IMG/VR virus record: IMGVR_UViG_3300046836_000673
Coordinates: 1-33,594 of that record
DNA length: 33,594 nucleotides
Source of the DNA: a virus
Strand: one strand, 5' to 3'
In this document: positions 1,977-28,707 of the stretch, one piece after another
How the letters are laid out: the number at the start of each line of letters is the position of its first letter
Numbering within the stretch: position 1 is the first letter of the stretch
Made by a program: the position numbers and the translations under genes
Notes under the pieces: model-generated
What the model was told of the DNA's origin: nothing
Database searches by the model: none
The model's input: only the letters and a program-made list of their open reading frames with translations

Positions 1977-2609
1977 ATGCCCTTTCTTGCCCTGATTCTG
2001 CCGCTGCTCTCTTCGGCGTGGTCCTTCGTCAAGGCGCACTGGCGCCCCTTCGCGCTGGCTGGCGCCCTGGTCGTGGCGTTCATCGGAGGGCGCTGCTCGG
2101 CGCCGAAGCCCGCGCTCCCAGCTGTGACGCAGAAGGCGACCTCGGACACCCACCAGGTCGAGCAGAAGCACGCCGAGGCCGTCGAGCAGAAGACCGCGCA
2201 GAAGGACGAGCAGAAGGTGATCCGCGTCGTGCGCGACCGGGTGACCCAGAAGGACGGCACGGTAGACGACCACACCGAGACGACCGAGACCATCGGCACC
2301 GAGACGCACGAGGCCGAGGCGACGAAGACCACGAACGACGACCACACCGAGACGACCCAGCACGTCGAGACCGTGACCGTCGTAACGCCCGCCCCGCTTG
2401 CGCCGAAGTGGTTCGCGGGGCTCGACCTCGGCGTGCCTGTCTCCCTGAAGGCCCCCTTCGCGGGTACGCCCTTCCTGGTCCTGCACCTGGACCGCGCGCT
2501 TCCCAAGCCCCGCTGGCTCCCCCTGACGCCCTCCGTGGGCCTGTGGGGCAGTCTCGACGTGAAGGGGCAGAGCCCGGCCGCGGGCCTTTCCTTTGGGGTG
2601 GGCTTCTGA
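1977..2609 (+). CDS. Rz-like membrane protein (spanin candidate)
   Basis: 210 residues from ATG 1977, preceded by GTGAGG 5 nt upstream. A longer in-frame start at 1917 would translate through repeat R1 and is rejected. Residues 1-33 hold one or two hydrophobic segments (LALILPLLSSAW; LAGALVVAFIGG). The middle is very polar, rich in Gln, Glu, Lys, Asp and Thr, with DDHTETT twice. The C-terminal third is less charged (LDLGVPVSLKAPF, SVGLWGSLDV). An anchored, elongated periplasmic rod after holin and lysozyme fits an inner-membrane spanin, although the C-terminal domain is larger than in classical Rz. TGA overlaps the next ATG (TGATG). Confidence 0.5.
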   Translation: MPFLALILPLLSSAWSFVKAHWRPFALAGALVVAFIGGRCSAPKPALPAVTQKATSDTHQVEQKHAEAVEQKTAQKDEQKVIRVVRDRVTQKDGTVDDHTETTETIGTETHEAEATKTTNDDHTETTQHVETVTVVTPAPLAPKWFAGLDLGVPVSLKAPFAGTPFLVLHLDRALPKPRWLPLTPSVGLWGSLDVKGQSPAAGLSFGVGF

Positions 2610-4282
2610 TGCCGACCGTCGAGCTTCGAGACTGCACGACCTGCAACTACCCCAAGCCGTTGACGGCGTTCGCCCTCACCACCGACAAGAAACACCGGCG
2701 CCGCGTCTGCCACCGCTGCCGGGAGGGCAAGCCGCCCGCGCCGCACCCCGGCGCATCTGCGAACCAGACCCCGGCCGCGCCGCCCGTCCCGGCGCCCCCG
2801 CCGAAGTTCTGGGGCCGGGAGCTCCCGAAGGCTCGCCGGTACCTCGTGACCAGCGCGCAGAATGCGACCCCGGTGCACGGGCCCTTCCTCGAGACACTGA
2901 AGCAGGCCGCCGGCTACCTCGGCGCCGAGCTTGTGGTGATTCCGCTTCGGTACCGGAACCCCACCACCCGCGGCGAGACGAGCAAGACCCTCGGCTGTGG
3001 CGCGCGCCCGGGCCAGCCCTGCGACCCAGGATGCCGCGCCAGGGACAGAGACAAGGCCAAGCCCTGCGGCACCGACTGGTGGGCGCTCGAGGTCGAGCCC
3101 TACCTCTTCGACGGCCGCGCCGCGCTCCACCGGCACCTGACGCTCGTCGCCGACGTGAAGTCCCAGCCCACCGCGACCCGGCCGCTCTCCGGCTTCGAGG
3201 CGATGACCGGGGCTGAAAGCTGCATCATCGGGCATCCGAAGATGGAGTTCGTCGTTGTGCCGGTGCCGAGCGGCCGGTTCCCGAAGATCCTCACGACGAC
3301 GGGCGCGGTCACCGAGCGGAATTACAGCGACACCCGCGCCGGCAAGCTGGGCGAGTTTCACCACTTCCTCGGCGGCCTGGTGGTCGAGATCGACAGCAAG
3401 GCGGACCTGTTCCACATCCGGCAAATCAACGCCGACCGCGCGACCGGGGAGTTCACGGACCTGGACCGGCACTACACGCCCCACGGGTCCGCCCCGGCGC
3501 CGCGTGCCCTCGGGCTCGTGATGGGCGACACACACGTGCGCGTGACCGACCAGGCGGTCGACGCGGCCACCTTCGGCCCCGGCGGCATGGTCGAGACCCT
3601 CGACCCGCAGACGCTCGTCTTCCACGACATCCTTGACGGCGACACGGTCAACCCACACGACACCGACAACCCCTTCATGAAAGAGGCCCGGCGAAAGGCC
3701 AAGCTGCAGGACGTCGAGGAGGAGATCCGGCAGGTCGTCGAGTTCGTGAACGCCCGCGGCGCCGGCCGCGACGTGGTCATCGTCGACTCGAACCATCAGG
3801 ACTTTCTCGCCCGGTGGATCACGCGCACGGACTGGCGCTCCGACCTGAAGAACGCCGACTTCTACCTGCGCACGGCCCTTGCGACCCTGCGGTCGGCTCA
3901 GATGCTTCTCAACGGCCCCAGCTATGCCGACCCGTTCCCGGTGGCGCTGCGCGAGCTCGGCCTCGCGGGGAACGTCCGATGCTTGGGCCCCGACGAGAGC
4001 TTCACCCTGGCCGACATCGAATGCGGCCTGCACGGGCACCGGGGGCCCAACGGGGCGCGAGGCTCGCTCAAGAACCTGTCCCGGATGGGGGCAAAGACCA
4101 TCACAGGGCACAGCCACACGCCGGGCATCGAAGAGGGCGGCTATGCCGTGGGGACGTCTACCCCACGCCGGCTGCACTACGCCCACGGCCCGAGCTCGTG
4201 GCTGAACACGCACTGCGTCGTCTACGCGAACGGCAAACGGGCGCTGCTCACGGTCGTCGGGGGACGCTGGTGCGCGGCCTAG
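2609..4282 (+). CDS. Zinc-ribbon calcineurin-like metallophosphoesterase
   Basis: 557 residues. An N-terminal zinc ribbon has Cys9, Cys12, Cys34 and Cys37. After a Pro/Ala linker (about 40-75) comes a long domain whose C-terminal half carries metallophosphoesterase motifs in order: GDTHV at about 305, FHDILDGD at about 333, an NH(Q)D motif in SNHQDF at about 393 and GHSHTPG at about 500. Such dimetal enzymes cleave phosphomono- or diester bonds; phage members include nucleases and DNA-processing proteins such as those of the T5 A1 type. The substrate here is unknown. It begins on the spanin stop codon, and its TAG overlaps repeat R2. Its placement after lysis genes rather than in the replication operon is unusual. 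Confidence 0.72.
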   Translation: MPTVELRDCTTCNYPKPLTAFALTTDKKHRRRVCHRCREGKPPAPHPGASANQTPAAPPVPAPPPKFWGRELPKARRYLVTSAQNATPVHGPFLETLKQAAGYLGAELVVIPLRYRNPTTRGETSKTLGCGARPGQPCDPGCRARDRDKAKPCGTDWWALEVEPYLFDGRAALHRHLTLVADVKSQPTATRPLSGFEAMTGAESCIIGHPKMEFVVVPVPSGRFPKILTTTGAVTERNYSDTRAGKLGEFHHFLGGLVVEIDSKADLFHIRQINADRATGEFTDLDRHYTPHGSAPAPRALGLVMGDTHVRVTDQAVDAATFGPGGMVETLDPQTLVFHDILDGDTVNPHDTDNPFMKEARRKAKLQDVEEEIRQVVEFVNARGAGRDVVIVDSNHQDFLARWITRTDWRSDLKNADFYLRTALATLRSAQMLLNGPSYADPFPVALRELGLAGNVRCLGPDESFTLADIECGLHGHRGPNGARGSLKNLSRMGAKTITGHSHTPGIEEGGYAVGTSTPRRLHYAHGPSSWLNTHCVVYANGKRALLTVVGGRWCAA

Positions 4283-4304: not shown

Positions 4305-4826
4305 ATGGTCCCTGCGCTCGTCCTCGCCCTGCTGTCAGCCGCGCCCATCTCCCTGCCGCCCGAGGCGGGCTGCACGACGACCTGCGGCCTCCGGGCGCCG
4401 CTGGAGACCGACTGCAAGGCCTTCCAGGCGCACGAGGATGCCACCCTTGAGGCGTTCGCCACCTACGTGCAGGGATGGACCCCGGACAGGACCTGCCCGC
4501 TCCTGAGGGGCTGGACGGTGCTTGTCACGCTGGGGCACCTGGACGCGCAAGGCGCCTTCAACATCGCGTGGAGCGACGGGAACCCGCTGGCCGTCTGGGG
4601 CGTCACCTACTTCGACCACCAGCTGATTGTCGTGGCGACGAACCGGTGGGGCGAGAGCGCGCTTGGCCACGAGCTCGGCCACATCTTCCGGCGGTACCTA
4701 GACAACTGGGACACCCTCGACCCGAACCCGCATGCCTCCCACGCCGGCTGGGGCCGGCTGGGGATCTGCACGGCCACGAAGGCGCTCTCGTCCCTCCGAG
4801 ACGGGTGCGCGGTCGGCGCCTACTAG
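4305..4826 (+). CDS. Secreted zinc metalloprotease (HELGH)
   Basis: 173 residues. Residues 1-16 form a short signal peptide (VPALVLALLSAA), so the product should reach the periplasm or outside. HELGH at 122-126 is a zincin HExxH motif; downstream His143 and His146 could give the third zinc ligand, but the spacing matches no family I can name. Cysteines at 23, 27, 37 and 64 suggest disulphides. There is no visible Shine-Dalgarno, because R2 ends 2 nt before the ATG; leaderless or coupled translation is possible. As the last gene before attP, it could be a lysis aid or a lysogenic-conversion gene. Both roles are inference. Confidence 0.65.
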   Translation: MVPALVLALLSAAPISLPPEAGCTTTCGLRAPLETDCKAFQAHEDATLEAFATYVQGWTPDRTCPLLRGWTVLVTLGHLDAQGAFNIAWSDGNPLAVWGVTYFDHQLIVVATNRWGESALGHELGHIFRRYLDNWDTLDPNPHASHAGWGRLGICTATKALSSLRDGCAVGAY

Positions 4827-4831
4827 CCCGT

Positions 4832-4853
4832 CCGTTCCCCCACCGTTCCCCCA
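4832..4853 (+). repeat. Paired 11-bp direct repeat, candidate integrase arm site (left)
   Basis: Two head-to-tail copies of CCGTTCCCCCA (4832-4842 and 4843-4853), one helical turn apart, about 75 bp to the left of the tRNA-like core. The same unit recurs in pairs to the right of the core. Confidence 0.6.
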
Positions 4854-4926
4854 CCTGAGCGAACGGGAACGGAACCGGGCGAACCCGAGCAAGCTCCCAA
4901 ACGACTGTTTCAACTGGAAAAAGCTG

Positions 4927-4970
4927 CGCGCCCGGAGGGACTTGAACCCCCAACTTCCGGCTTCGAAGGC
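4927..4970 (-). other. Candidate attP core: 3' half of a tRNA-Arg (UCG)
   Basis: Read on the minus strand this is the 3' part of a tRNA. It has anticodon loop CTTCGAA (anticodon TCG), stem strand GCCGG, variable loop AAGTT, T-arm GGGGG-TTCAAGT-CCCTC and acceptor strand CGGGCGC followed by G. Bases 5' of the anticodon loop no longer pair with GCCGG, and no D-arm is present, so it is a fragment and not a working tRNA. A tRNA 3' half beside an integrase gene is the classic attP layout: integration would restore the host tRNA gene. The integrase ATG is about 90 bp away. Confidence 0.72.
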
Positions 4971-5009
4971 CTTCCAGAGCTAGAGTGAAGACGGGCGGTT
5001 TTGCGGGTC

Positions 5010-5031
5010 CTTTCCCCCCACTGTTCCCCCA
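5010..5031 (+). repeat. Paired 11-bp direct repeat, candidate integrase arm site (right)
   Basis: CTTTCCCCCCA (5010-5020) followed by CTGTTCCCCCA (5021-5031). This is the same 11-bp pair as at 4832-4853, with two or three changes, on the other side of the tRNA-like core and just before the integrase start. Confidence 0.55.
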
Positions 5032-5059
5032 CCCGGGGGAATGGGCTAATCTTTAGCTC

Positions 5060-6397
5060 ATGCCCACGCCCCGCCTGAAAATCGTTCCGGTTTCCGTTCC
5101 CCCGGCCGTTCCCCCACCCTCCGAGCCCACCCGAGCAGCGTGGAAGGGTTGCGGGCGCACGAGGACCGTCGACGGAGTCACGACCTACTACATCCGGCAT
5201 CGCATGGGAGACGGGCGGCGGCTCGAGTTCGCCGTCGCTTCGGGGCCGGCGGGGAGCGCTGCCGTCGAGCGCGACGCCCTCTCAGAGTATGCGCTGTGGC
5301 GGACCAACCCGGAGGGGTACCAGACGCCCAAGGCGCGCATGGTGCAGGTCCAGCGGCGGGGAGACCGGGCCGCCGTTCGGCTGGACGAGAGCACGCTCGA
5401 GGCCTTCACGGCCTACTGCCAGGACCTGGTGAACCGGGACCAGATGTCCGCCGGGCATCTCGACTCGACGCTCGGGCCCTACCTGATCGCGTGGATGCGC
5501 GCCCTCGGGTTCCGGGACCTGCACACCCTGACCCTCGACGACCTGCAGGCGGCCCTGCGCCGTCCCGACTTCAAGACCGCCCGCCACAAGCGGATCGTCG
5601 CGCTCAAGCGCTTCACCAAGTGGGCGCGCGAGGAGAAGCCGGCGCCGAAGCTCCGGCGGCAGGACGACCCTACCCTCGACCTGAAGGTGCCCCCGGTGGT
5701 CGCCGAGAAGGCCCGGCGCCGGAAGGGCTACACCGTGAAGCAGGTGGAAGACTTCTACCCCTTCGTCGCCTCCCAGGCGGCTCGGGACATGATCCGCCTG
5801 CGCGCCTTCGGCAACGGGATGCACGACACCGAGATCGACCGCTTGGCGCGCGGGAAGGGTGTCCTCGAGCGCGTGAACGACCCCAGCGGCATCGCCGGGA
5901 CCATCACGTTCGACCAGAAAAAGAAGGGCGAGACGCACGTGATCAGCCTGGACGCTGCAGCCTTCGCTGCCGCCGAGCGGCTACAGGCGCGGGGCAAGGC
6001 GCTGAGCAATACCGCGTATCACGCCGAACTTAAGAAGGCGGCCATCCGGCAGCACGGGTGCGTCGGCGTGTCACAGCCCGTCGTGCGGAGGAAGGGCGGG
6101 GTCGACAAGCGCACCGGGCGCGACCGGACCGGGGAGGCGAACTCGAAGATCGTCCCCTGCCCCAAATGCTTCCGGATGCAGCCGAACGAGCTCCGGCACT
6201 CCTTCGCGACGTGGGCGACCACCATCGGCGAGGAGGTGAAGCCGGTCGGCCGCAAAGGCGTCGCGCTCGACAAGGTCGCCGAGCGGATGGGCCACAAGAG
6301 CAAGCGGACGACGTCGGGGTTCTACGTCGACAACCACGTGCCGGACATGATCCGGGTCCCCGTGACGCTCACCCACCCCGAGGACCCGACTCCGTAG
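5060..6397 (+). CDS. int: Tyrosine recombinase integrase
   Basis: 445 residues. It should catalyse recombination between attP and a host tRNA-Arg gene. Residues about 115-195 form the SAM-like core-binding domain. The catalytic part shows a beta-hairpin lysine in FDQKKKGETHVI (about 285-294), box II LRHSFATW with Arg379 and His380, His412 in MGHKS and the nucleophile Tyr422 in GFYVDN. The box I Arg seems to be replaced: GNGMHDTEIDRL has His255 where GTGMRxxEL is usual. A CPKC pair at 367-370 marks an insertion before box II. The start is placed by the ATG after GGCTAATCTTTAGCTC. The gene overlaps the convergent 6369-6686 gene by 29 bp. Confidence 0.87.
   Translation: MPTPRLKIVPVSVPPAVPPPSEPTRAAWKGCGRTRTVDGVTTYYIRHRMGDGRRLEFAVASGPAGSAAVERDALSEYALWRTNPEGYQTPKARMVQVQRRGDRAAVRLDESTLEAFTAYCQDLVNRDQMSAGHLDSTLGPYLIAWMRALGFRDLHTLTLDDLQAALRRPDFKTARHKRIVALKRFTKWAREEKPAPKLRRQDDPTLDLKVPPVVAEKARRRKGYTVKQVEDFYPFVASQAARDMIRLRAFGNGMHDTEIDRLARGKGVLERVNDPSGIAGTITFDQKKKGETHVISLDAAAFAAAERLQARGKALSNTAYHAELKKAAIRQHGCVGVSQPVVRRKGGVDKRTGRDRTGEANSKIVPCPKCFRMQPNELRHSFATWATTIGEEVKPVGRKGVALDKVAERMGHKSKRTTSGFYVDNHVPDMIRVPVTLTHPEDPTP
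5094..5116 (+). repeat. Further pair of arm-type repeats inside the integrase 5' end
   Basis: CCGTTCCCCCG (5094-5104) and CCGTTCCCCCA (5106-5116), 12 bp apart, within integrase codons 12-19 (coding VPP..VPP). They match the repeats on both sides of the tRNA-like core, which argues that the DNA motif and not only the peptide is conserved. Confidence 0.45.
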
Positions 6398-10331: not shown

Positions 10332-12707
10332 CTAAGCGCTGGCGGCCAAACCCCGCGCAACGGCTACGGGGTTCAACTTCCCCACGCCGTCGCACACCCG
10401 CTTCACTCCGTCGGCCTCGACCTTGTGGCTCAGAATGTGGCCGTCCCAGCCGACCGGCGCGAGCTTCCGGCAGTGCGGACACTTCTCGACGGGCACGACG
10501 CGGCCCGCGGCGTCCCGCTCGGTCGTGGCGTCCTTGTACCAGCGCCACGCGAGAGCCGGCTCGACCACGCACGGGATCCCCGTCGAGTTCGGCGAGACAC
10601 CCGGGCCGCAGAACTCGGCAAAGGCCTGTTCCATCAGCCGGCAGGCGCGCTCGGCCGCCGCTGGCGCGGCCTCGACCGAGAGCTCGAGGAACTGCTCGTC
10701 GTGCACGAACACGAGCAGCCGCTGCCCCCACAGCGTCGAGGTCGGGTCGCAGTAGGCCTCCTTCATGGTCAGCCACAGGGAGCGCTTGGCGATGTCCGCG
10801 GCGAGCCCCTGGAAGGTCGTGTTCGCGCCGTTCGTAAAGTTGCAGCGCCCGCGCACCCGCTCGGAGATGATTTGCGTCACGCTGCCGACGCTCATTTCCT
10901 CGGGGAAGCCGTCCTCGTCGAGGACCTCTACCACCTCGCGCCCGGTCCACTCATTCACAATGGCGAAGTAGCCGGTCTCGCTGTTCATCTCCGGCCAGGT
11001 CTCGAACCACTTGTCTTTGAGCTTCCGGGCCACGCCGAGGCAGGCCTTACAGACCGTGGTCTTCGAGCGCTTGTCGAAGACCTTCTCGACGCCGCAATCG
11101 GTCGCCTCGCCGCTCAGGAGGCAGAACCGCGCATTGTAGGACTGCCGTGCGTAGGCGACGAGCTTGACCGCGCCGAGGCCGCCGGGGAGGCCGAAGTTTG
11201 CCGCCTTGGCCATCTGCCGGAAGTCCTTCGCCCACTTCTCTTTAGCCTCGAGCGCGGCCGTGAATTCTTCATACGTGCAGCCCTTGATCTGCGCGCCGAG
11301 CATGGCGTGCAGGTCGAGCCCCGCCCGGAGCGCGTCGGCCATGTGTGACCGAAGGCCGAGGTACTCGAGCACGAAGGCCAAGGTCCGGAGCTCGAGGGTT
11401 GGGTAATCCAGTGAGGCGAAGATGCAGCCGTCGCGTGCGATGAAGCCCTCGCGCGGGTTCCCGGCGTCGTTGCCCCGCGGGAGGTTCTGCAGGTTGGGGC
11501 TCGAGGCCGACGTGCGCCCGGTGTCCTTGATCGGGTCGTATCGGGTATTGATTGGGACGACGGTCCCCTGCGCCAAAACCTTGAGGTAGGTCGAGAAAAA
11601 CTTCTCGTTATCCTGCGCCTTGGCGAACTCTTCGAGCAGCGGGTCGCCCGACTCCTTCAGGGTGTCCTTGTTCGTCCGGATGTTGCCCTTCGCCGAGGTC
11701 GGCGGGTCGCCCTGGTAGACGGCGGTTACGAGCGTCTCGAGCGCCTTTTTGTCGGTCCCGTAGCGCATGGGGCGCCCGGCGTCGACGTCGGCCAACGCCT
11801 TCCGGAGGGCCGCCGCGCGCGCTTTCGTCTCCTCTGCGGCGTTCACAGCCGCCTCGCCCTCGGCGCGCACGCACGCCTCGAGCAGGGCGTCTCGGTCGAT
11901 GTGGTCCGGCTGCTGAAGGACGCCCTTCACCTTCGTGCACCGGTTGACCTTGAGCAGCCCGGCCGCGAGGAAGTGGGCCCGGGAGCGGGAGTGCTCGGCC
12001 GTGACCTTGGCCGTGAACTCGTCAACCCACGGCTTGTCGGTCCGGATGCCCCACATCGCGGACAGGTGCAGGACCCAGTGCGCGCGGATCTGCGCGGGGA
12101 GGTCGTGCAGGTTCCGGCCGTCGGCTATCTGCGCGACGGCGACGTCGTAGGTCTCGCGCGCGTCCCGAATGGGGTAGGCGCGGGCGGCCTCGGGCCGCTG
12201 GTCGAGCGGGATGCCGTCGAGCTCGGCGTAGCGCAGGCGCCAGGCGTCCGGGCCGCTCTTCTCGGCGGCGCGGTCGCTCCCGAGGTACTTCCGGCCGAGC
12301 TCTTCCAGGGAGAACCCCGAGCCGCTCGAGGAGTGCCCGTCGCCGAGCGTGCCCTCGTGGATCTGGATCAGCTTCTCCGCGAGCATCGTGTCGAAGGCCT
12401 CGTCGCGTTCGAGCTTTGCAAAGACGAGCGGGACGAGGGTCGGGTCGTCGGCGCACATCACGCCGAGGTCGTAGGCAAGGTTATGGCCGACGAGGACGCT
12501 CGGCCCTTCGAGCACCTGGCGGAACGCCCGGCGCGTCTCGACCTTGTCCATGATGTCTTCAGTCTCGGCGCCGTGTAGGTCGTGCAGGATCGGATCGATC
12601 GCATAGGAGCCGCAGACGAGCGGCGGCGCGAGCAGGCCCGGCTGAATCAGCCAGGTTTCCGTGTCAAAGGCCCAGAGGGTTTTGCCTCTGAAGGGATTCG
12701 GCTTCAT
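10332..12707 (-). CDS. Family A DNA polymerase (PolA-like) with 3'-5' exonuclease
   Basis: 791 residues, start ATG 12707 overlapping the methyltransferase stop (ATGA). N-terminal proofreading motifs are FDTETW (about 14), GHNLAYDLG (about 79) and RDARETYD. Polymerase motif A is DYPTLELR (about 430), the O helix is RQMAKAANFGLPGG (about 504) and motif C is VHDE (about 667). Compared with Klenow, the O helix keeps Arg, Lys and Phe but the usual Tyr of YG is Gly. Cysteine pairs around 11040-11130 (CLLSG..DCG..CKAC) and a C-terminal CPHC suggest zinc-binding insertions. It lacks a 5'-3' exonuclease domain and is presumably the phage replicase, next to its clamp. Confidence 0.9.
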   Translation of the reverse strand: MKPNPFRGKTLWAFDTETWLIQPGLLAPPLVCGSYAIDPILHDLHGAETEDIMDKVETRRAFRQVLEGPSVLVGHNLAYDLGVMCADDPTLVPLVFAKLERDEAFDTMLAEKLIQIHEGTLGDGHSSSGSGFSLEELGRKYLGSDRAAEKSGPDAWRLRYAELDGIPLDQRPEAARAYPIRDARETYDVAVAQIADGRNLHDLPAQIRAHWVLHLSAMWGIRTDKPWVDEFTAKVTAEHSRSRAHFLAAGLLKVNRCTKVKGVLQQPDHIDRDALLEACVRAEGEAAVNAAEETKARAAALRKALADVDAGRPMRYGTDKKALETLVTAVYQGDPPTSAKGNIRTNKDTLKESGDPLLEEFAKAQDNEKFFSTYLKVLAQGTVVPINTRYDPIKDTGRTSASSPNLQNLPRGNDAGNPREGFIARDGCIFASLDYPTLELRTLAFVLEYLGLRSHMADALRAGLDLHAMLGAQIKGCTYEEFTAALEAKEKWAKDFRQMAKAANFGLPGGLGAVKLVAYARQSYNARFCLLSGEATDCGVEKVFDKRSKTTVCKACLGVARKLKDKWFETWPEMNSETGYFAIVNEWTGREVVEVLDEDGFPEEMSVGSVTQIISERVRGRCNFTNGANTTFQGLAADIAKRSLWLTMKEAYCDPTSTLWGQRLLVFVHDEQFLELSVEAAPAAAERACRLMEQAFAEFCGPGVSPNSTGIPCVVEPALAWRWYKDATTERDAAGRVVPVEKCPHCRKLAPVGWDGHILSHKVEADGVKRVCDGVGKLNPVAVARGLAASA

Positions 12708-19106: not shown

Positions 19107-21125
19107 TCAACCGGCGGCCTTCGACAAGCCCGCTAAAAGCTTCTGGTCAGACAGTGTGGTTCCCTTCACGTAGCCCGCCCGCCCGAGCGCGATGTCGAAA
19201 GCCGATTCGAGTTCCGTCACGTGTAGGTAAAGCTCGACCGTCACGACGCTGGCCTTCTGCAGCGACCGGTGCGTGCGCCCGATCAGCTGTTCCCAGATTC
19301 CCGCGTCGGCCGGCGGCTGCATCACGAGGTTCGCGCTGAACGCCTGCAGGTTCCGGCCGCGGTGGTGGGCCTTGATGGATGCCACGACGCTCCGGTCCCC
19401 ACGCTCGGCGCGGATGCCGATGGCTGCCTCGTCGCCGCGCCCGTAGTAGGGGCGCCCTGCGGCCTTCGCGACCAGGTGGCCGAGCGCCGGGTTCTCGACC
19501 CACACGATCCCGGGCTTCCCCTTGGCCTCCTGTTCGAGCATCCAGGCCGCCGCGTCTCGCGCGAGCCAGTCCGAGAGCCACTTCGTCTTAGTCTCGTGCG
19601 GCACGGTCTTTTCGATTGCGCTCCACGCCTCCCAAGTCTTCGACGCCCACGTCGTCTTTAGGCCCCGGTAGCCTGCGACATGGCGGCGCGCGGCCTCCTT
19701 CAGCAACCCCTCCGAATCCATGTTCGGCACGCGCGGCCCGTCGAGCGCTGCCCGGACCTCTTTGTTCCAGGCCTTCCGGGCGCGGTACCAGCGCGGGATC
19801 AGCCCATCCGGCTCGGCGAACTCCTCGGGCGGGATGCCTGGGAAGTTCCAATACATGAAGAACCCGCAAGCGACCTCGCGCGCCCACATCGCGGCCTCGA
19901 GCGCGTCGTCGGTCTTCTCGCCGTCAGGGCGCGTCTTCTTCGAGCGGACCATTGCGAGCGCGTCCTTCACCTCCTGCGGCATGGGCGGTGGTTCGCGCTC
20001 GGCGACGATGAGCTCGACCCCGGTCAGCGACCCCTCGAACGTGGCCACGACGCCGGCCGTCTCAATGAACCGCCGGGCAAAGCCCTGATAGACCGTCTCC
20101 CCGGGCTTGCAGAGCCTCAGGAGCGCCCCCGGCGGCGCCGGTTCCACCCCGGGCCTGGTCGGGTTCAGGGCCTTGCCCCAGGCGGTCACGACGCTCGGCT
20201 CGATTGGCACCGGCGAGCACTCGCGCAGCGACAAGGCGGCAAGGTGGGAGTAATCCTCAATCCCTCGCGAGGTAAGGGAGCCGGTGTGGCAAAAGAAGCG
20301 GGTATCGGGCTTGTTCAGGAAGTGATCGAGGAACCGGCCCACGCGCACCGCGGTCCGGTCCTTCAGCGCCTGCGCCTCGTCGGCGATCACGACCGTGATG
20401 TCGGGCCGCGCCTCGAACCACTGAGAGAACCGGGGCGACGAAAGCTCGCTGTACTTCAGGACGTGAAGCACAGGCCGGCCCTGCACGTATTCGCCATTCG
20501 GTCCCGCGCCGGGCTCGCCGCCGCCGAGGTTCGGAACCTGGAAATGCTGGGCCCACAGGCGGAAGTCGGCGAGGAACTGCGGCTTCAGTGTGTTGGGCAG
20601 GAGCAGGACGGCCTCGCGGCAGTCCGGGACCACCATCGCGACGAGGATGTCGATCCCGGTCTTGCCCGAGCCGACGGCGATTGGTCCGAGGCAACCCTGC
20701 ACGAGCGCGGCTTCGTAGAGGTACCAGGCCTGAATGTCTCGCAGGTCCGTGATGCAGGCCGACCCGGGCGTGCCGTCGTACATCGCCGGGTTGAGCTCGT
20801 GGCAAAGGCAGCCGTCGCCGCGCGCGCGGCCGTTGCTCAGGCGCGCGGTCATCTCCCGGCGCATCATCTCGAAGCCCTCTTCGGTCGGAACTGGCCGATA
20901 GGGCAGAGCGAGGATCCGCTCGAGGTCCTCCGAGTTCCGCACGGCGTCCTCGCCGTGTTCCTTCACGAAGCGCTCGTCGCGGTTGCGGCTCTCGGCCGCG
21001 AGGCGTGCCACTCGAGCAGCCTTGAAGCCCTCGCGGGTCGCGACCGGCCGGGCGTCGGCCGCGGCCTCGCGGATCTCTTCTGCGGTGGCGGCGCGCTGCT
21101 TTCGGAGCTTCCGGAGCAGGCTCAT
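19107..21125 (-). CDS. SF2 (SNF2/DEAD-like) DNA helicase or translocase
   Basis: 672 residues from ATG 21125 (TGATG overlap). Walker A is GPIAVGSGKTG (about 150), motif II VVIADEAQALKD (about 248) and motif III-like FFCHTGSLTSRG. C-terminally there is a helicase domain with GIVWVENPALGHLV, SANLVMQPPADAGIWEQLIGRTHR (motif VI, about 616) and the following Leu-rich segment. An N-terminal 60-residue Ala/Arg-rich region precedes the core. It should use ATP to move on or unwind DNA in replication, recombination or repair. A CLCHELN segment before Walker A could bind metal. Confidence 0.85.
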   Translation of the reverse strand: MSLLRKLRKQRAATAEEIREAAADARPVATREGFKAARVARLAAESRNRDERFVKEHGEDAVRNSEDLERILALPYRPVPTEEGFEMMRREMTARLSNGRARGDGCLCHELNPAMYDGTPGSACITDLRDIQAWYLYEAALVQGCLGPIAVGSGKTGIDILVAMVVPDCREAVLLLPNTLKPQFLADFRLWAQHFQVPNLGGGEPGAGPNGEYVQGRPVLHVLKYSELSSPRFSQWFEARPDITVVIADEAQALKDRTAVRVGRFLDHFLNKPDTRFFCHTGSLTSRGIEDYSHLAALSLRECSPVPIEPSVVTAWGKALNPTRPGVEPAPPGALLRLCKPGETVYQGFARRFIETAGVVATFEGSLTGVELIVAEREPPPMPQEVKDALAMVRSKKTRPDGEKTDDALEAAMWAREVACGFFMYWNFPGIPPEEFAEPDGLIPRWYRARKAWNKEVRAALDGPRVPNMDSEGLLKEAARRHVAGYRGLKTTWASKTWEAWSAIEKTVPHETKTKWLSDWLARDAAAWMLEQEAKGKPGIVWVENPALGHLVAKAAGRPYYGRGDEAAIGIRAERGDRSVVASIKAHHRGRNLQAFSANLVMQPPADAGIWEQLIGRTHRSLQKASVVTVELYLHVTELESAFDIALGRAGYVKGTTLSDQKLLAGLSKAAG

Positions 21126-21334
21126 CAGTCCTCGCCCATCTCTTCGAAAACGTCTCGAAGCCACTGACACAGAAACCGCCAGGCTCGCACCGGCCAGGGT
21201 GTTTCCAACACCGCGAGCCGCGCCTCGATCTCAAGGACGGCGCGTGCGAGCAGGACGTCTCCTGCTTCGGGATGACCAGGGGTCATGGACGGGGCGCAGC
21301 TAAGGGCGAATCGGAGTCGGTCTAGGTGTCTCAA
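21125..21334 (-). CDS. Small hypothetical protein
   Basis: 69 residues if it starts at TTG 21334, which overlaps the upstream stop (TTGA). An ATG at 21286 gives 53 residues, and neither has a clear Shine-Dalgarno. The C-terminus LLARAVLEIEARLAVLETPWPVRAWRFLCQWLRDVFEEMGED is amphipathic and acidic. Stop overlaps the helicase ATG. Confidence 0.4.
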   Translation of the reverse strand: MRHLDRLRFALSCAPSMTPGHPEAGDVLLARAVLEIEARLAVLETPWPVRAWRFLCQWLRDVFEEMGED

Positions 21335-27864: not shown

Positions 27865-28707
27865 ATGGCACTGAAGGAAAAGTTGTTGGCCCAATTGAGG
27901 TCACAAAGGGAAAAAGTGGCCGTTGTTGCAGCCGAGGCCCCCGACCCGATTAATACCCCTCTGCCCGTAATTTCAGACGCTGAAAAAGCCATTTCGGGCA
28001 CGCCGAAAAGCCCTGCGACCGACATTTCTGGCGATATTCCTGTCTCTGAGCGGAGGACGGCACCCGGAATTCCTAGCCTGACCCCAGCGCGCGCCGATCC
28101 CCCTGCGGTAGAGCAAGGTAGGTCTGGTTTGCAAGTGGACCTTACAAACGTGCCCGTGCGGCTGATCCGCGACAGAGATGGCCTCAAGTTCGGCCGCCTC
28201 GCAATCGTCGCTCCCGCGCCTTACAAGCCCGCTCGAGACTCAGAGGGCCGGCTGCTCCCGGGCCATACCGCGAACCCTCTGGGCAAGCCGCCCAGCCTCG
28301 CCCGCTACGTCTATGAAGTGACCGGCGGCGGACAGGAGATGATCGACCATGCCGTGCAAGTGATGCGCGGCTCGGCGCCGATTCATTGGCAGAACGATGA
28401 GGGGATGCTGTGCGAGCGCATGGCGCCCGCGTCCATTAAGGACCAGGCCGACGCGCGGGTATTCCTGCAGACCACCATGCAGCCGGAGCTCGATAAGGTG
28501 GCGGCTGCTACAGAGGGCGCGCGTAAGCTGGACTTCAGCCGCCTAACCTACGATGAGGTCGCAGAGTTTCGGCGCTTGTTGACGCTGGCGCAGGGCGAAC
28601 TGCCCCCACCTTCCGGCTTGATGAGCCGCCCGCGCGCAGAGGTAGAGAGCGACGCGGAACTCGTGCCTTCCCCCACCGTTCCCCCACCCTCAGGCACCAA
28701 GCACTAG
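27865..28707 (+). CDS. DUF5681-like protein, small terminase subunit candidate
   Basis: 280 residues, ATG with GAGGG 7 nt upstream. The first 90 residues are Pro/Ala/Ser-rich and likely disordered. Residues about 125-200 contain DSEGRLLPGHTANPLGKPPSLARYVYEVTGGGQEMIDHAV, close to the (F)xPGxSGNPxGRP motif of the DUF5681 family found next to terminase and plasmid genes. The C-terminal LTYDEVAEFRRLLTLAQGELPPP is helical. Position ahead of the large terminase suggests a small terminase role. The end carries the 11-bp attP-type repeats (28665-28686). Codons and base composition near the start are more AT-rich than those of its neighbours. Confidence 0.5.
   Translation: MALKEKLLAQLRSQREKVAVVAAEAPDPINTPLPVISDAEKAISGTPKSPATDISGDIPVSERRTAPGIPSLTPARADPPAVEQGRSGLQVDLTNVPVRLIRDRDGLKFGRLAIVAPAPYKPARDSEGRLLPGHTANPLGKPPSLARYVYEVTGGGQEMIDHAVQVMRGSAPIHWQNDEGMLCERMAPASIKDQADARVFLQTTMQPELDKVAAATEGARKLDFSRLTYDEVAEFRRLLTLAQGELPPPSGLMSRPRAEVESDAELVPSPTVPPPSGTKH
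28665..28686 (+). repeat. Third locus of the paired 11-bp attP-type repeat
   Basis: GCCTTCCCCCA then CCGTTCCCCCA (28665-28675, 28676-28686). This matches the candidate arm sites at 4832-4853 over 20 bases but lies about 24 kb away, at the 3' end of the 27865-28707 gene (coding VPPP). Confidence 0.55.

Follow-up and report, generated by a model that had tools for sequence, protein, structure and literature searches.

A tRNA-Arg(UCG) 3′ half beside a divergent tyrosine integrase gene very probably forms the attP core of a temperate myxobacterial phage

The DNA analysed, referred to here as the window, is the whole of a linear virus contig of 33,594 bases. On its minus strand, at a position placed by script, lies the 3′ half of a tRNA-Arg(UCG) gene (Table 1), for which an earlier note on this DNA had given the right coordinates. 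The half gene consists, in order, of the anticodon loop CTTCGAA with its UCG, the 3′ anticodon strand GCCGG, a five-nucleotide variable loop AAGTT, the T arm GGGGG-TTCAAGT-CCCTC with one G-U pair, the 3′ acceptor strand CGGGCGC and the final G73; the two loops, the T arm and the acceptor strand are intact, as the note had described, and the D arm and the 5′ acceptor strand are missing. The further statement that the 5′ side of the anticodon stem does not pair holds for bases 27-28 but not for bases 29-31: this strand reads AAGGC, and its last three bases pair with 39-41. They possibly mark where identity with attB ends on the 5′ side, or form the other core-type half-site of the integrase, and the repeat of an unrelated element at tRNA-Arg(TCG) in the myxobacterium G091 takes in the same three bases. 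ARAGORN called no whole tRNA gene in the window, and the Rfam tRNA model aligned positions 4927-4970 of the minus strand as a fragment only, at 14.8 bits against a cut-off of 29, a low score that is expected because only half of a tRNA gene is present; both results agree with the partial status proposed earlier.

The half gene is adjoined by a tyrosine integrase gene (int). To the left of the core lie the genes of a phage lysozyme and a DNA transfer protein, and to the right are int and replication genes. The product of the gene nearest the core on the left had no match in Pfam or PHROG; the corresponding position holds cargo in a related prophage.

Table 1. Positions of the attP core, putative integrase sites and neighbouring genes in the window.
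Position	Strand	Feature	Evidence or remark
2018..4282	+	DNA transfer protein (phrog_1745)	Marks the DNA left of the core as phage rather than host
4305..4826	+	Putative secreted lipoprotein, 173 aa, with HELGH metallopeptidase-like motif	attL side of the core
4832..4853	+	Candidate P-arm Int sites: the 11-bp motif CCGTTCCCCCA twice in tandem, at 4832 and 4843	73 bp from core
4927..4968	-	Probable attP core, tRNA-Arg(UCG) 3′ half, C32 to discriminator G73	Sequence, Rfam, homologous position in relatives
4969..4971	-	Bases 29-31 (GGC), pairing with 39-41	Sequence
5009..5031	+	Imperfect tandem pair, copies at 5009 (2 mismatches) and 5021 (1 mismatch); candidate P′-arm Int sites	40 bp from core
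5060..6397	+	Tyrosine integrase, 445 aa, starting 91 bp from core	Profile, alignment, predicted structure
5094..5116	+	Another pair of the motif, of uncertain role, within the first part of int	
10332..12707	-	Family A DNA polymerase	Matches myxobacterial prophages in order and orientation with respect to int

The resemblance to a tRNA gene is not a matter of chance, because the core and the 3′ half of the tRNA-Arg(TCG) gene of an Archangium MAG (L011) are identical at 38 of 42 bases, while 200 dinucleotide shuffles of the window gave best matches to the same half with a mean of 24.8 and a maximum of 29. When 84,980 genomes were searched with a relaxed pattern, 20 stretches came up, 18 of them with an intact tRNA-Arg(TCG) gene. 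The earlier note had expected a search of bacterial genomes to recover the core; the exact core was absent, but real tRNA-Arg(UCG) genes agree with it at 36-39 of 42 bases, so that the outcome named there as fatal to the attP reading, that no bacterial tRNA-Arg shares the core, was not what we found. The phage half is, moreover, able to restore a gene: when joined to the 5′ halves of seven real tRNA-Arg(TCG) genes, it gave a chimera called as tRNA-Arg(tcg) by ARAGORN in all seven cases. Viral contigs that matched the T arm and acceptor alone were set aside, as they mostly contained other, whole tRNA genes.

Tandem pairs of an 11-bp motif lie on both sides of the core, and the number of such pairs seen was reached in none of 1000 shuffles of positions 4781-5130. 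Most integrase relatives have an 11-bp tandem pair between core and int, and in each of four delimited prophages (see below) an 11-bp motif peculiar to that prophage recurs at the two att ends, always in the same orientation: as a pair next to int, once or twice at the opposite end, and hardly anywhere else in the element. Repeats on both sides of a core are what would be expected of arm-type integrase sites, and binding of the integrase to them is predicted. The motif may also bind a regulator or have some other second role, because copies occur inside int and at positions 28665-28686. The tandem pair at the latter site is far from att, at the end of an ORF (27865-28707) and upstream of the terminase gene, and could be either a regulator site or a coding coincidence (a VPPP-type peptide). 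Separately, the sequence TTCACTCTA is present on the minus strand at window positions 4981-4989, 12 bases before the core start, at a spot shared with two tRNA-Glu relatives, L040 (as CACTCTA) and L117; it is possibly an accessory or promoter element.

The integrase is a divergent tyrosine integrase with an N-terminal beta-beta-beta-alpha domain, a core-binding domain and a catalytic domain. The model predicted for it is of modest confidence (mean pLDDT 66.7); residues 32-82 form three strands and a helix, and the top fold matches were those of full-length lambda Int (PDB 1z1b and 1z1g), covering the arm-binding domain, the core-binding domain and part of the catalytic domain, at 11-15% identity. 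A sequence profile of the integrase found no match in the PDB, and tblastn none in the phage record collection. The modelled N-terminal arm-binding domain, together with the repeats on both sides of the core, is consistent with the heterobivalent architecture of lambda-type integrases. The catalytic set is not the canonical one and departs from that of lambda integrase, with His255 in place of the box I Arg, followed by Arg379, His380, His412 and Tyr422. Assignment of His255 to the box I position was made by motif alignment and is weakly supported by hhalign; the histidine lies in a GMHxTE motif and is invariant in alignments A1 and A2; the relatives L033-L044 and L114-L118 have it throughout. 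The family with the box I His nonetheless has exact att junctions in the relatives.

Relatives of the integrase in prophages of Myxococcota are 41-48% identical to it (44-50% in the best segments). In most of those read, a tRNA 3′ half lies just upstream of int, on the opposite strand, and starts at or near the anticodon loop; the tRNAs concerned are tRNA-Sec (selC), tRNA-Glu(UUC) and tRNA-Met. Four prophages of about 13 to 43 kb could be delimited from this fragment to an intact copy of the same tRNA, either tRNA-Sec or tRNA-Glu, at the far end, with direct repeats of 66 bp (G091), 63 bp (G134), 63 bp (G123) and 93 bp (G129) that are exact or nearly so and start at C32 or one base before it. 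The window fragment corresponds to those of the four prophages in position, orientation and starting base. The sequence at the break is CTTCRAA-like or CTTTCAA in several targets (Sec, Glu, Arg and a comF-like gene in L033 and L039), and the Met and Thr targets are without it. The relatives L033 and L039 have no tRNA fragment upstream of int, and by eye a comF-like phosphoribosyltransferase gene can be read after CTTCAA, which suggests integration in a protein gene.

The likeness extends beyond the att region, the window being collinear with myxobacterial prophages from att and int as far as the helicase gene; in integrase family, gene order and att layout it belongs with the G091, G134 and G129 prophages. 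The structural genes of the window had no tblastn match in these prophages. In viral contigs, queries with the single integrase and polymerase sequences brought up no close relatives, and a search with an alignment brought up five prophages. A 687-aa protein encoded at window positions 19107-21170 (minus strand) is conserved in the prophages; it has no PHROG, and its one match among phage records is MW202816, annotated as chromatin-remodelling-like.

A sequence comparison with the integrase relatives strongly supports reading the half gene as attP, as the earlier note had proposed, since fragments of the same kind lie at the same place in these relatives and in the four delimited prophages. 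In collinear prophages the fragment marks the end of the element; in the window it is interior, and it would be attP, rather than attL or attR, because phage genes flank it on both sides. For the window phage we infer a crossover in the anticodon loop, in which the anticodon arm would provide the core-type sites and the flanking 11-bp repeats the arm-type sites bound by the integrase, and the CTTCGAA of the phage would recombine with the same sequence in a host tRNA-Arg(UCG) gene. The replacement 3′ half carried by the phage (C32 to G73) would rebuild the split host gene at the attL end, and the host's own 3′ half would be displaced to the attR end, beside int. As judged from the core alone, tRNA-Arg(UCG) would be the target of the phage's own integrase, and tRNA-Arg(UCG) is accordingly the predicted class of attB. 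No lysogen of the window phage was found in the 84,980 genomes, the viral contigs or the 195 Myxococcota genomes, and none of the integrase family members examined uses tRNA-Arg(UCG).

The local layout could also arise if the contig were a fragment of an integrated prophage and the tRNA half at 4927-4968 were its displaced attR copy, adjoined on the left by host DNA or a second, tandem prophage; in the prophages, the displaced attR copy is likewise a tRNA 3′ half beside int. We consider this very unlikely, as the DNA to the left encodes two phage proteins, a lysozyme and a DNA transfer protein, and contains the arm-type repeat pair at 4832-4853, which in the prophages is a feature of the attL end. 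Almost no credence can be given to a decayed tRNA gene once carried for translation and with no tie to integration. In its favour, tRNA genes are common in phages, and most of the viral contigs that share the T arm and acceptor have whole ones; against it, the break falls exactly at the anticodon loop, the half that is kept still folds with real 5′ halves, it lies beside int between arm-like repeats, and the relatives carry different tRNAs cut at the same point, with attL and attR there.

A question of another kind is whether the site is an attP whose host is an acidobacterium, or a member of some other phylum with a similar tRNA-Arg(UCG). By count, the best match to the core is indeed a tRNA-Arg of Acidobacteriota, at 39 of 42 bases (L021). 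However, the tRNA-Arg genes of acidobacteria encode CCA, and the phage core, like the tRNA-Arg of Archangium, is without it; 199 Acidobacteriota genomes searched with an integrase profile, without a positive control, yielded nothing at E<=1e-10; and the integrase and the collinear early genes are widespread in Myxococcota. A host outside the myxobacteria thus appears unlikely, and we regard it as very probable that positions 4927-4968 serve a temperate myxobacterial phage as its attP core.

The most likely host is a myxobacterium with tRNA-Arg(UCG), Myxococcota being indicated as the phylum because the integrase family and the gene order occur there. The exact 40-nt core is absent from the 84,980 genomes and from the viral contigs, a search with a 41-nt core and up to three mismatches gave no match in 195 Myxococcota genomes, and the closest myxobacterial tRNA-Arg(UCG) genes, none of them identical, differ at no fewer than 4 of 42 bases, mainly at positions 42-45. 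The host species is probably unsequenced. That tRNA-Arg(UCG) is a usable site in myxobacteria follows from G091, because another, unrelated element of 64.7 kb inserted there, using tRNA-Arg(TCG) as attB and leaving the displaced 3′ half 64.7 kb away; the integrase of that element (L106:8453-9847) has the canonical box I motif TGLRRGEL. Displaced tRNA-Arg(TCG) 3′ halves were seen in two Myxococcota genomes (L107 around 7929; L105 10004-10077 and L106 at about 10000). Those in G091 and G003 were rejected as lysogen ends of the present phage: they belong to other elements, and the window integrase had no match there.

An attP that carries tDNA and is broken at the anticodon loop belongs to a standard class, class A of Islander (PMC4383910), and the window phage shares with that class both the 3′ tDNA fragment in attP and the position of the break. 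On integration in class A the tRNA gene is restored and a fragment of it displaced, both of which we infer here; the difference lies in the predicted target, tRNA-Arg(UCG), which is not seen in the other members of this integrase family that were examined. The site is thus of a well-known kind, and tRNA-Arg(UCG) would be a newly seen target for the prophage family. Among temperate phages of Myxococcus, Mx8 and Mx9 integrate by means of a phage int with attP close to it (PMC6070905). The attP of Mx8 lies within the int coding sequence, and integration alters the 3′ end of int (PMC6070905), whereas the window core is upstream of int, not inside it. The Mx-alpha elements of M. xanthus are widespread multi-copy prophages in units of 80-100 kb, often in tandem (PMC5562445); compared by description only, the present elements, at about 13 to 43 kb, are smaller. 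The related G091 prophage has a likeness to them in the genes near its attL, where, at L047:1856-3714, the gene of a SitA-like protein whose C-terminal part has a WHH-type nuclease motif overlaps that of a DUF2019/HEAT protein, a pair resembling the toxin-immunity cassettes of Mx-alpha.

As far as alignment can tell, the unusual part of the case is the box I His of the integrase. The first catalytic Arg is missing or shifted in the tyrosine recombinases IntDOT and IntDes (PMC8138268); in the members of the window-integrase family that were read, His takes this position. It is conceivable, though somewhat less than probable, that the lambda-type integrases of a myxobacterial prophage family, all with a box I His, form exact att junctions in the genes for tRNA-Sec and tRNA-Glu, probably in that for tRNA-Arg, and in others, and that the family changes target by exchanging the att core and the arm repeats; if true, some other residue would do the work of Arg I in the active site.

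The attP thus allows the host of an orphan metagenomic phage to be predicted in concrete terms, as a myxobacterium with tRNA-Arg(UCG), and brings to light a prophage family that is common in myxobacterial genomes, with att sites that vary in sequence and are constant in layout. The integrase of this family departs from the usual catalytic set, and both target switching and the missing arginine become testable.
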